From the NCBI GenBank assembly GCA_024207135.1, contig CP042428.1, forward strand, positions 3,038,001 to 3,102,000: a DNA stretch of 64,000 bases, written 5' to 3'. Under the pieces are notes generated by a model that saw only the letters and a list, made by a program, of their open reading frames with translations, searched no databases and was not told the origin of the DNA. The translations under genes were made by a program, and so were the position numbers. Shown piece by piece: positions 34,597 through 56,454 of this stretch (its first letter is position 1; each line of letters opens with the position of its first letter). Origin of the DNA: Arthrobacter sp. C2 (lineage in GTDB: Bacteria > Actinomycetota > Actinomycetes > Actinomycetales > Micrococcaceae).

Positions 34597-34719
34597 TCAC
34601 CGCACGCGGAAGACCATGTCCATCGGAAGGTGGTTACGTAGTTCACGATCCCGGTTGTCCGGGTTGAACTGCGTCTGAAGCCAAGCCTTGTTCTTTGGCT
34701 TTCGGTTTTTTGCAGCCAC
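34597..34719 (-). CDS. Very small basic protein, third of three tandem small genes
   Basis: A 40-codon gene starting at GTG with GGGGAGG about 7 nt upstream, overlapping the end of the previous small gene's ribosome-binding region. The product is strongly basic at its N-terminus (AAKNRKPKNKAW) and ends VFRVR. No family recognised. Strong ribosome binding site and tandem arrangement are the evidence for coding. It lies 5 nt after the stop of the 48-codon gene and is probably translated from the same transcript. Confidence 0.55.
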   Translation of the reverse strand: MAAKNRKPKNKAWLQTQFNPDNRDRELRNHLPMDMVFRVR

Positions 34720-34724
34720 GGTGG

Positions 34725-34871
34725 TTACCTCCCCTCAACCTTGTTGGAGGTGCGGAAGGCGGCTTGTTCGGCCGGCCGAGTGGTGCGGGCGTGCAACGCT
34801 TCCGGTCCGGCGAATATGAGTTCGGCGGAGCGAGCAGCCTGGGTGGTGATCGAAGAGATCTGGGTAGACAT
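34725..34871 (-). CDS. Very small protein, second of three tandem small genes
   Basis: A 48-codon gene with GAGGAAC about 8 nt before its ATG. The product is polar and Ser/Thr/Ala-rich (STQISSITTQAARSAE at the start), without cysteines or a membrane segment. Its stop codon lies in the GGGGAGGTAACC that also serves as ribosome binding site of the next gene, an arrangement typical of translational coupling. Function unknown; it could be a leader, a precursor peptide or a regulatory peptide. Confidence 0.55.
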   Translation of the reverse strand: MSTQISSITTQAARSAELIFAGPEALHARTTRPAEQAAFRTSNKVEGR

Positions 34872-34944
34872 GACGAAAGTTCCTCAAGGATTTGGTCGAT
34901 TAATGACTCATCAGCCTCGGGAACTTTGAAAAGCTAGGGAAGTA

Positions 34945-35052
34945 CTAGCAGGGCGCCGTTCCGGAGGCGGGGGAAGTTGCTCGGGCGGTAGAGCCGCCGA
35001 AGCCATGACGGGGCACATAGAAGCCGCCGAAATTCATTGAATTAATCATCAT
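34945..35052 (-). CDS. Very small Gly-rich peptide with a Ser/Thr/Cys tail, first of three tandem small genes
   Basis: A 35-codon gene with a near-perfect ribosome binding site (AAGGAGGTGG, 5 nt from the ATG at 35052). The product opens MMINSMNFGGFYVPRHGFGG and ends STARATSPASGTAPC. The tail has a single C-terminal cysteine and a SxxSx(4)C pattern, like the labionin motif of class III lanthipeptides, but no modifying enzyme is encoded nearby. It may be a precursor peptide acted on in trans, or an unrelated small protein. Confidence 0.6.
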   Translation of the reverse strand: MMINSMNFGGFYVPRHGFGGSTARATSPASGTAPC

Positions 35053-35121
35053 TCCCACCTCCTTTTCTGGAAGAACATGCCAGAAAATCCTGGCGCCAAT
35101 ATTGTCTATTCGATCTCGATG

Positions 35122-35140
35122 TCTCATTGAGACTTCTCAA
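35122..35140. promoter_or_regulatory. Nested palindromes upstream of the small-gene cluster
   Basis: TCTCATTGAGA (35122-35132) overlaps TTGAGACTTCTCAA (35127-35140, perfect inverted 6-bp arms with a CT spacer). They lie 70-90 nt upstream of the first small gene, where a promoter or operator would be expected. No regulator is assigned. Confidence 0.4.
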
Positions 35141-35269
35141 TCACAGGTTCCACGATACACAACAATGCGCCATTACGCCACATCAATTTGGGAAAACTTT
35201 AAAGAAAGGACCCCGTTTCGGCGTGTTGCTGACGACACGCCGGAACAAGGCCCCGAAATCCTGCTCGGA

Positions 35270-36709
35270 CTACTGCTCGGTTGACTCCGGCTGCTGCGCC
35301 CACCACTCGCGAAGCACGGTTACCGCTTCGTCCCGGTCGATCGGGCCGTTGTCCAGGCGGCGTTCCAGCAGGAAGTTGTAGGCGCGTCCCACCACCGGGC
35401 CGGGCTTGATTTCCAGCAGCTCCATGATCTGCTGCCCGTTGAGGTCCGGGCGCACGGCCGCCATTTCCTCCTGCTCGCTGATCTCGACGATGCGGGCCTC
35501 GAGATCGTCGTAGGCGAAGCTGAGCCGGTCGGCCTTCTTGCGGTTGCGGGTGGTGACATCGGAACGGGTCAACCGGTGCAGGCGCTCCAGCAAGTCCCCG
35601 GCGTCGTGGACGTAGCGGCGCACCGCCGAATCGCTCCATCCGGCATCGCCGTATCCGTAGAAGCGCATGTGCAGCTCGACCAACCGGGCGACGGCCTTGA
35701 TGGAGTCGTTGTCGAAGCGCAGGGCGCGCATGCGCGCCTTGACCTGCTTGGCGCCGACCACGTCGTGGTGGCGGAAGCTGACAGCCCCGTTGGGCTCGAA
35801 CTTGCGGGTGGCCGGCTTGCCGATGTCATGCATGAGGGCCGCGAAGCGCAGCACGAAGTCGGGTCCGGGAACCGGTCCGTCGGCATCGCTTTCCAGTTCC
35901 ATGGCCTGTTCGAGCACCGTCAGGGAGTGCTGGTAGACGTCCTTGTGGCGGTGGTGCTCGTCGATCTCAAGGCGCAGGGCGGAGACCTCCGGGAGCACGA
36001 TGTCGGCCAGGCCGGTGTCCACCAGCAGGTCGATGCCCGCGCGCGGGTTGGCGCCGTTGATGAGCTTGACCAGTTCATCCCTGACCCGCTCGGCCGAGAT
36101 GATCTTGATGCGTTCGGCCATTTCCGCCATGGCAGCCCGGACGTCGGCGGCCACGTCGATTCCCAGCTGGGAGGCGAAACGTGCCGCACGCATCATGCGC
36201 AGCGGGTCGTCGGAGAAGGACATCGAGGGTGCCCCGGGCGTGCGCACCTCGCCGGCGGCCAGGTCGACGGCCCCGTTGTAGGGGTCCACCAGTTCCAGGT
36301 TCGGCAGGCGCAGGGCCATGGCGTTCATGGTGAAGTCGCGGCGGTACAAGTCGTCTTCGAGCTTGTCCCCGAAGGCGACGATGGGCTTGCGCGAGGACGG
36401 GTCGTACGCATCGGCCCGGTAGGTCGTCACCTCGATGGTGTGCTGGTCCTTGCGCAAGGCGATGGTGCCGAAGGCGCGTCCCACTTCCCAGGTGGCATCC
36501 GCCCACCCGGCCACCACGGCCAGGGTTTCGTCAGGAGAGGCGCTGGTGGTGAAGTCCAGGTCCGGGGACACCCTGCCGAGAAAGAGGTCCCGCACCGGGC
36601 CTCCCACCAGGGAGAGTTCAAAACCGGAGTCGACGAATCGCTGTCCCAGTTCAAAGATGACGGGGGGCAATAGTTCGGTGAGAACCTGGGGGGACGGTAG
36701 TTGCTGCAT
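35270..36709 (-). CDS. cca: CCA tRNA nucleotidyltransferase
   Basis: This 479-residue class II nucleotidyltransferase adds or repairs the CCA end of tRNAs. The head domain has LVGGPVRDLFLG (35-46) and the metal-binding DLDF (50-53), then RRDFTMNAMAL. A C-terminal HD domain carries HRHKDVYQHSL and LMHDIGKPATR. It diverges from the NUDIX gene, the usual arrangement at actinobacterial origins. Confidence 0.95.
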   Translation of the reverse strand: MQQLPSPQVLTELLPPVIFELGQRFVDSGFELSLVGGPVRDLFLGRVSPDLDFTTSASPDETLAVVAGWADATWEVGRAFGTIALRKDQHTIEVTTYRADAYDPSSRKPIVAFGDKLEDDLYRRDFTMNAMALRLPNLELVDPYNGAVDLAAGEVRTPGAPSMSFSDDPLRMMRAARFASQLGIDVAADVRAAMAEMAERIKIISAERVRDELVKLINGANPRAGIDLLVDTGLADIVLPEVSALRLEIDEHHRHKDVYQHSLTVLEQAMELESDADGPVPGPDFVLRFAALMHDIGKPATRKFEPNGAVSFRHHDVVGAKQVKARMRALRFDNDSIKAVARLVELHMRFYGYGDAGWSDSAVRRYVHDAGDLLERLHRLTRSDVTTRNRKKADRLSFAYDDLEARIVEISEQEEMAAVRPDLNGQQIMELLEIKPGPVVGRAYNFLLERRLDNGPIDRDEAVTVLREWWAQQPESTEQ

Positions 36710-56102: not shown

Positions 56103-56454
56103 GCTTCGCACCTGCCTTAGGAACAACCGAACCAAGCCCGGACCGGACTTGCTGGCTAAGCTCGTCCCAATCGATGTCCGCGGAACCAGGCAATGCCCGG
56201 AGCACGACATCGAGGCCGGTGGCATCCGCAGTGAACTGCGCGGCCAGTGCACGCATTCGTCGCTTGACGAGATTGCGCTGCACGGCATTGCCAACGGCCT
56301 TGGAAACGATAAAACCAAAACGGTTATTGCCTTGGGGTTCTTCAGAACGAACCCGTGCATATAGCACTACGTTCCGGCGCCCAGTGCGGGCGCCGGAACG
56401 TACAGTGGCTGTAAAGTCCTGCGAAAGGCGCAGTCGTTGATTCTTTGGCAACAC
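56086..56454 (-). CDS. rnpA: Ribonuclease P protein component
   Basis: This 122-residue basic protein supports RNase P RNA in tRNA 5' maturation. The RNR-type motif appears as AVQRNLVKRRMRALA. GTG start. It lies between rpmH and yidD, with overlap to yidD. Confidence 0.95.
   Translation of the reverse strand: MLPKNQRLRLSQDFTATVRSGARTGRRNVVLYARVRSEEPQGNNRFGFIVSKAVGNAVQRNLVKRRMRALAAQFTADATGLDVVLRALPGSADIDWDELSQQVRSGLGSVVPKAGAKREKGF

Follow-up and report, generated by a model that had tools for sequence, protein, structure and literature searches.

A candidate ribosome-sensing leader ORF upstream of two conserved small proteins in Micrococcaceae

What are three very small genes doing in a row on the minus strand of an Arthrobacter chromosome, each preceded by its own ribosome binding site (SD) and none resembling a known family? 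The ORF listing of the window (the whole 64,000-nucleotide stretch of contig CP042428.1 from Arthrobacter sp. C2 that was analysed) gives ORF1 with 35 codons (MMINSMNFGGFYVPRHGFGGSTARATSPASGTAPC, 34945-35052), ORF2 with 48 (34725-34871) and ORF3 with 40, starting with GTG (34597-34719). Their upstream neighbour is pcnA, the gene for CCA tRNA nucleotidyltransferase (TIGR02692, 727 bits against a cut-off of 439), which ends at 35270, and ORF1 starts 217 nt farther along the minus strand. A spacer of 73 nt separates ORF1 from ORF2, and the ORF2 stop codon TAA (34727-34725) lies directly 3' of the ORF3 SD, GGGGAGG (34734-34728), much as the preliminary description of this DNA had it; the nested palindromes that it placed upstream are present as well. 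The unit is longer than was noted there, as it also comprises a 5' motif (35143-35122), a fourth SD-start (34528) and a hairpin (34504-34472); nor did that description mention the competing helices open to the spacer and the ORF1 tail. Read along the minus strand, the order is a promoter-like pair, the 5' motif, the ORF1 ribosome binding site (SD1), ORF1, the spacer, ORF2, ORF3, an SD with an ATG, and the hairpin. Our best explanation, to which we assign a probability of about 0.62, is that this unit is a translational attenuator similar to those of erm and cat genes, in which ORF1 probably senses ribosomes that have started but not finished translating it, and thereby controls two new small proteins.

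The first question is whether the genes are real. The preliminary description had named unconserved frames or ribosome binding sites, or frame-breaking indels among relatives, as grounds for giving up the three genes; neither was found, and the tandem arrangement is real, with frames and SDs conserved in relatives. Among 15 genomes of the same genus (hereafter g1; g23 is Glutamicibacter, and the other g-numbers are further Micrococcaceae genera), ORF1 was found in 14 at E <= 1.7e-4, the fifteenth (G002) carrying a diverged copy, ORF2 in all 15, and ORF3 in all 15 at E <= 1.5e-7. Across 14 aligned genus loci, the SDs and the spacer are conserved at the nucleotide level. A profile of ORF2 matched 33 of 245 genomes of the family at E <= 1e-14 (15 from g1, 15 from g23 and 3 from g18) and 45 of 245 at E <= 0.01; some of the weak matches are real as judged from position and anatomy (g11, g21), and at least one, in G119 (locus L140), is not.

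Many of the Micrococcaceae genera examined, Paeniglutamicibacter and Glutamicibacter among them, carry the operon downstream of pcnA, and it lies within about 2.5 kb of that gene in 27/27 g1 and g23 genomes for which both places were listed. The same layout, in far diverged letters, occurs downstream of pcnA in g5, g8 (4/5 loci), g10 (6/7 loci), g25 and g27, and probably also in g7, g14, g20 and g28. It was not seen in the examined loci of g4, g12, g13, g15, g22 and g31; g2, g3, g6, g16, g17, g19, g26 and g29 were covered by profile searches alone, and g9 (a short contig), g24, g30 and g32 were counted neither as present nor as absent. Since pcnA is about 2 kb or more away in g21, g8 and G004, the operon probably has its own promoter. 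Outside the family, 20 loci taken downstream of pcnA in 19 further families of the same order contained no recognisable operon; one candidate (L201) among them exceeded a loose cut-off. The ORF3 profile matched 3 of 248 genomes of the order, all of them Micrococcaceae, and is insensitive, since it missed family members such as g10. A duplex energy of -15 kcal/mol was passed by 10/15 opposite-strand candidates compared with 33/86 on the sense strand; this unselective cut-off was therefore used for finding leader-like ORFs and not as a test. In one g8 locus (L145, 2500-2990), an extra short ORF (MSTFRSKCPRVQPAAF...) stands between the leader and an ORF2-like gene of about 100 amino acids that contains GELITAGNL.

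For selection on the encoded peptides, we used pairwise NG86 medians of dN/dS, with 13 sequences from g1, 15 from g23 and 3 from g18. ORF2 gave 0.33 in g1, 0.21 in g23 and 0.71 in the 3 sequences from g18, and ORF3 gave 0.20, 0.16 and 0.35 (again 3 sequences), respectively; by these ratios, ORF2 and ORF3 are proteins under purifying selection. ORF2 contains the conserved core AELIFAGPEALHAR, and ORF3 is a basic protein (median net charge of +6 over 32 loci) with a conserved C-terminus resembling P(x)EMxFRxR. As the preliminary description had stated, no known family is involved: ORF1, ORF2 and ORF3 had no match in Pfam, NCBIfam, PHROGs or PADLOC, and profiles of the ORF2 and ORF3 families found nothing in Pfam at E <= 1 or in the PDB at E <= 0.1 (best E-value 0.5 or worse). 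The AlphaFold models are of low confidence, with mean pLDDT values of 61.7 for ORF2 and 65.2 for ORF3. The preliminary suggestion that these small proteins form a new family is thus supported for ORF2 and ORF3, given their conservation across genera, the purifying selection on them and the lack of a known family, and judging from the sequences we regard them as two small proteins of a new family.

ORF1 behaves differently. Its dN/dS is 0.40 in g1, 0.90 in g23 and 1.35 in g18 (3 sequences), and in this contrast in selection the ORF1 peptide is, as far as substitutions tell, hardly constrained outside g1; within g1, it may be constrained, because the ratio is 0.40 there. The preliminary description had proposed that ORF1 encodes the core of a RiPP, likened to a labionin-forming lanthipeptide, or a peptide signal, as its product ends in SPASGTAPC, that is, SxxSx4C. 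Within the genus, a terminal cysteine is found in 14/14 leaders and the SxxSx4C pattern in 11/14, and 20 of 35 columns are invariant among 11 g1 sequences; together with the g1 ratio of 0.40, these features favour a reading in which ORF1 is itself a functional peptide (a signal, a RiPP precursor or a small protein) and any RNA pairing is secondary. Outside the genus, a single leader out of 27 (g11_L124, from G024, ending STSSAPGAC) has the terminal cysteine, and the same one alone has the pattern, two other g11 leaders ending in VLGSL. In g23 the peptide is hardly constrained, it differs between genera, and its conserved positions coincide with the pairing segments described below: the conserved nucleotides at the 3' end of ORF1 are those that pair with SD1 and with the spacer. 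The absence of a modifying enzyme or transporter beside the genes, reported before, holds for the three neighbours scanned (the CCA tRNA nucleotidyltransferase, a convergent ORF beyond the unit with a HAD-IIB match below its cut-off, and a PQQ_2 match), among which there was no labionin or lanthipeptide synthetase and no transporter. We therefore consider the RiPP or peptide-signal proposal unsupported, given a terminal cysteine in 1/27 leaders outside the genus and a dN/dS of 0.90, and a functional ORF1 peptide of any kind very improbable. The specific form of a labionin or lanthipeptide precursor was rejected, as the Ser/Cys core is not kept outside the genus, ORF1 varies in length (33 to 42 codons in Glutamicibacter) and its dN/dS is 0.90 in g23. 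By eye, the leaders of other genera share no common run of amino acids or motif, and an amino-acid-specific attenuation leader was likewise rejected, since no shared run of regulatory codons was seen among them.

If the peptide matters so little, what is conserved in ORF1? Folding of the leader gave three recurrent helices, formed by four segments of the minus strand. SD1 (AAGGAGGTGG, 35055-35064), itself a very strong ribosome binding site, pairs with segment A (CCCGCCTCCGGAAC, 34958-34971) within the ORF1 3' end. Segment B in the spacer (AAAGTTCCCGAGGC, 34914-34927; identified from folds, duplex tests and alignments) pairs either with A or with segment C (CCTTGAGGAACTTT, 34876-34889; from folds and duplex tests), which holds the ORF2 SD, GAGGA (34885-34881), 9 nt 5' of the ORF2 ATG, and is masked by B. 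Within A, positions 34971-34963 pair with SD1 and positions 34968-34958 with B, and the ORF1 stop codon sits in the loop of the alternative A:B helix. A further hairpin, TTTTCTGG...CCAGAAAA (35063-35087), lies immediately 5' of SD1 and is mostly kept in g1.

We compared the duplex energies of cognate segments, summed over 23 representatives of the 41 annotated leaders, with those of segments swapped between leaders (5000 permutations, ignoring phylogeny). Swapped segments paired as strongly as cognates in 0/5000 permutations for SD1:A, 0/5000 for B:C and 30/5000 for A:B, and the control combinations were no stronger as cognates (SD1:C, 4927/5000; A:C, 958/5000; SD1:B, 3745/5000). The SD1:A signal does not stem from relatedness alone, because cognates also beat swaps made within a genus (mean of -21.4 versus -19.4); for B:C, cognates within a genus were no stronger than swaps (-17.8 versus -17.9). 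Alignment columns were also analysed. In A:B, on 28 of 32 loci from g1, g23 and g18, 96.8% of 280 cells are paired, compared with 27-62% in slid versions, and 12 cells have changed on both sides, which 0/500 shuffles reached. These double changes are confined to 2 of 10 pairs, and 10 of the 12 cells fall in one pair that divides two genera, so that they represent few events; the number of covarying pairs and that of pair types were not above shuffles (361/500 and 368/500). In B:C, 92.0% of cells are paired and 4 have changed on both sides (4/500 shuffles), and the covariation score is exceeded by slides of +1 and +2; in this region the aligner had shifted L052. In two loci (L012 and L013), one base of B has changed from G to A (column 75 of alignment A5), and its partners in A and in C have both changed from C to U, so that in these sequences the same B base is held to two partners; a third locus, L043, is an exception, having changed in B alone. 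Similar helices in other letters occur in g5, g8, g11 and g21, though not at every locus.

No known RNA family accounts for these structures. Within the window, no Rfam family reached its gathering score (0 matches), and the 10 weak matches at E <= 5 (CRISPR-DR28, Twister-sister, 2dG-II and others) all scored below gathering and were rejected. The spacer reads CTGATGAGTC...CGAC, and a hammerhead ribozyme was considered and rejected, as neither a GAAA core nor a third stem was seen in it and Rfam reported none. The loop of the B:C stem contains GTCANTANTCGAC (34914-34895), which is nearly invariant between g1 and g23 although the three helices do not need it; the CTGATGAGTC next to it looks like one half of a hammerhead core.

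Attenuators of erm and cat genes, such as ermC and ermB, have a leader ORF with its own SD, and four segments of which 1:2 and 3:4 pair to mask the leader SD and that of the gene; the alternative 2:3 pairing frees the latter, and the position of a ribosome decides between the two. The present unit has the same anatomy, with four segments capable of 1:2, 3:4 and alternative 2:3 pairing, segment 4 carrying the SD of ORF2, and a leader ORF whose frame and SD are, by sequence comparison, conserved in 14/15 genus genomes and in other genera. By its anatomy, we would class it as a variant of the ribosome-mediated translational attenuators. ORF1 would then be a translated sensor whose peptide hardly matters outside the genus, and ORF2 and ORF3 would be the products. 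At rest, SD1:A and B:C would form and both ribosome binding sites would be masked. Ribosomes running through ORF1 would cover A, and B:C would form again. A ribosome held at the first codons of ORF1 would cover SD1 and leave A free; free A could capture B during the transcription of B, C would stay single-stranded, and ORF2 would be translated, as would ORF3, whose SD abuts the ORF2 stop. Drift of the peptide beside co-evolution of SD1 with the ORF1 3' end would follow from such a mechanism, because what is sensed would be the position of the ribosome and not a particular nascent peptide. The stalling itself, the ORF1 start as the decisive place and an inducing signal, for instance ribosome-targeting drugs, are what we infer.

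How far do folding models bear this out? In equilibrium folding of the full leader with blocked ribosome footprints, the openness of the ORF2 SD hardly varied with ribosome position in 22 leaders, mostly staying at 0 to 0.25, with g18 and g11 partly open throughout. This model result speaks against a purely thermodynamic switch, and because no dependence on ribosome position was seen at equilibrium, a switch would need co-transcriptional kinetics. We therefore also modelled the nascent RNA, using transcripts that end before C, for 18 of the 41 leaders. With a ribosome at codon 1, SD1:A was removed (1.3 pairs or fewer), and 6.9 to 15.3 A:B pairs were expected in 16/18 leaders, the value being 0.0 in g11_L127 and g21_L141; shuffled versions of B reached at least 6 pairs in 57/360 cases. 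Without a ribosome, at least 5 A:B pairs formed in 11/18 leaders; these 11 also reached that number when the ribosome stood at codon 6, a position at which SD1:A had re-formed in 18/18 (4.9 pairs or more). The gain in A:B from a ribosome at codon 1 relative to none was at least 5 pairs in 10/18 leaders. With a ribosome 11 codons before the ORF1 stop, at least 5 A:B pairs persisted in 7/18 leaders, and at seven codons before the stop A:B had fallen to 0.3 pairs or fewer in 18/18. Loss of A:B once ribosomes reach the ORF1 end is thus robust in the model, and the ORF1 start codon as the place of sensing, the weakest step of the explanation, is supported in about half of the leaders. No arrest peptide would be needed either way, which agrees with how freely the ORF1 peptide drifts.

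The same leader logic could act on transcription, with B:C serving as a terminator or a Rho-permissive state and A:B as an antiterminator. The sequence CTTTTTT comes directly after the B:C stem in most g23 loci, and in the g25 leader (L158) inspection by eye places a hairpin and then a T-rich run 5' of ORF2; moreover, passages of PMC12121999 tie a repressed uORF-controlled gene to Rho termination. The g25 element, at about 1050-1095 on the reverse strand of its locus, consists of a CCCCG..CGGGG spacer hairpin and the T-rich run and, seen by eye, is suggestive of a transcriptional version. In the window, however, nothing but CTTTCGTC comes after the B:C stem, and this stem buries the ORF2 SD in the folded g1 and g23 loci, which a pure terminator would not need to do. 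We regard the transcriptional version as unlikely, and control at the level of translation as what the attenuator more probably exerts.

By analogy of logic, the closest known systems would be the erm/cat attenuators and the toiL uORF. The likeness to erm/cat lies in the leader ORF with its SD, the four-segment alternative pairing and the proposed role of ribosome position; the difference is that erm/cat attenuators control a resistance enzyme, whereas here the leader precedes two small proteins without an assigned function, its peptide is not conserved between genera and no arrest motif was found in it. The toiL uORF of the E. coli topAI-yjhQ operon masks the downstream ribosome binding site and senses several classes of ribosome-targeting drugs, some of them by arrest at the start codon, according to passages of PMC12121999. 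In that system, stalling opens a hairpin between the uORF and the ribosome binding site of topAI, whereas here a separate helix joins SD1 to the ORF1 tail and A:B would be the freeing fold. In actinobacteria, the whiB7 uORF is likewise said in PMC12121999 to sense several classes of ribosome-targeting antibiotics. As an actinobacterial leader ORF it may be likened to ORF1 by logic, the difference being that it controls a transcription factor. A literature search confined to PMC, outside which most subscription journals and preprints lie, returned nothing that we recognised as this locus among the matches listed.

The topAI precedent also bears on what ORF2 and ORF3 might do. They could be a toxin-antitoxin or self-inhibiting pair that translation stress releases via ORF1, as topAI-yjhQ is released by toiL according to PMC12121999, and the close coupling of two small genes that follow a leader of the stress type would suit such a role. 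Set against this are the fixed place of the operon near the CCA-transferase gene, at about 2.5 kb or less in 27/27 g1 and g23 genomes, and the lack of any family match for ORF2 and ORF3, toxin or other; we find a toxin-antitoxin pair quite improbable. Under the attenuator reading, ORF2 and ORF3 would serve in translation stress. If this reading is right, the chromosomes of a bacterial family encode a sensor of ribosome movement that works without an arrest peptide and is separate from any resistance gene; its output is two undescribed small proteins, and the locus would be a compact setting in which to study the signal that ribosomes give when they are held early on an mRNA.

Upstream of SD1, a putative promoter was picked out by eye, with -35 GTGGCG (35181-35176), 18 nt of spacing and -10 TATCGT (35157-35152), together spanning 35152-35181 on the minus strand; similar hexamers, with variations, occur in other g1 loci and other genera. 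The 5' motif, TGATTGAGAAGTCTCAATGAGA (35122-35143), can form two overlapping hairpins, ATTGAG-AAGT-CTCAAT and GTCTC-AAT-GAGAC. By eye, TGATTGRGAAGTCTCAATGAGA stands at the predicted transcript start (+1) in g1 and g23, and looser variants of the motif are seen in g18, g5, g8, g11, g21 and g27. A near-palindromic motif at the predicted +1 that is conserved across genera would suit a DNA operator to which a dedicated transcription factor binds, with the leader merely fine-tuning expression. The second hairpin, scored by a mechanical rule that mis-picked one g11 locus, keeps 5/5 pairs in 31/41 loci; it has changed on both sides in g18 (ATCTC/GAGAT, in 2/3) and g11 (TTCCC/GGGAA), and it is not kept in g5, g8, g21 and g27. 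Such hairpin-preserving changes in g18 and g11 suggest, at the level of sequence, that the motif acts as RNA, which tells against the operator. At up to 3 mismatches, the motif has one copy per genome in 5/5 genomes, so that no multi-site regulon is indicated and a multi-site operator was rejected. A dedicated operator as the main control is, in our estimate, rather improbable.

At the other end of the unit, an SD (AGGAG, 34541-34537) and an ATG (34528-34526) begin a fourth ORF, ORF4, which enters a terminator-like hairpin of 14 bp (34504-34472) after eight codons and has its first in-frame stop only at 34312-34310, beyond the hairpin. Of 51 loci examined, 46 gave a hairpin with an SD-start by a mechanical rule; the ORF4 frame is open to the hairpin end in 42/46, compared with 16/46 and 26/46 for the other two frames, and in two of the four exceptions (L008 and L047) the rule seems to have picked wrongly. 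The stops lie 4 to 1575 nt beyond the hairpin, five of them within 9 nt, and in 15/17 loci of g1 and g18 ORF4 starts exactly 24 nt before the hairpin. The core pattern of the hairpin occurs once in its own genome. Both strands of the window together gave nine hairpins, two of them counted twice, and an SD-start stands immediately 5' of this hairpin and of one other. The stem is identical in 14 aligned g1 loci as well as in L041 and L050, which exceeds the needs of a stem alone, and no U tract accompanies it.

If transcription ends at this hairpin, the ORF4 mRNA would have no stop codon, as is the case for arfA and brfA according to PMC8012679. The likeness to ArfA and BrfA is a coding frame that enters a predicted terminator before its stop; the difference is that their nonstop frame is the rescue factor, whereas ORF4 is a short fourth frame, with about 8 codons ahead of the hairpin, behind two ordinary ORFs. 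PMC8012679 also states that there could be further rescue mechanisms that use small proteins, which sequence similarity might not reveal. A relation of the ORF2 and ORF3 families to rescue factors was found neither by PDB profile search (E <= 0.1) nor in Pfam (E <= 1). A missing ArfB was rejected as a case for a new rescue factor, since 14/15 genus genomes have a third ORF with an RF-1 domain, 141 to 162 codons long, presumably the size expected for ArfB; the incomplete genome G011 gave no RF-1 match. The two ends of the unit might together form a translation-quality circuit, in which the leader releases ORF2 and ORF3, the stopless ORF4 mRNA is a programmed substrate of trans-translation, so that output would also depend on ribosome-rescue capacity, and ORF2 with the strongly basic ORF3 belongs to a new lineage of proteins that act on the ribosome in its rescue, its hibernation or the control of initiation, a lineage so far seen in Micrococcaceae only; we hold this extension to be speculative and unlikely as a whole. 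ORF4 would nevertheless offer a test of purpose-built nonstop mRNAs outside arfA and brfA.

Two minor observations concern hairpins. Outside the operon, the window contains a GC-rich hairpin of 15-16 bp at 56368-56402. In five Glutamicibacter loci (L042, L043, L047, L049 and L051), the hairpin of the ORF3-ORF4 region, viewed by eye, keeps the loop CGCCATTACCG (TGCCATTACCA in L051), and the letters of its stem change on both sides.
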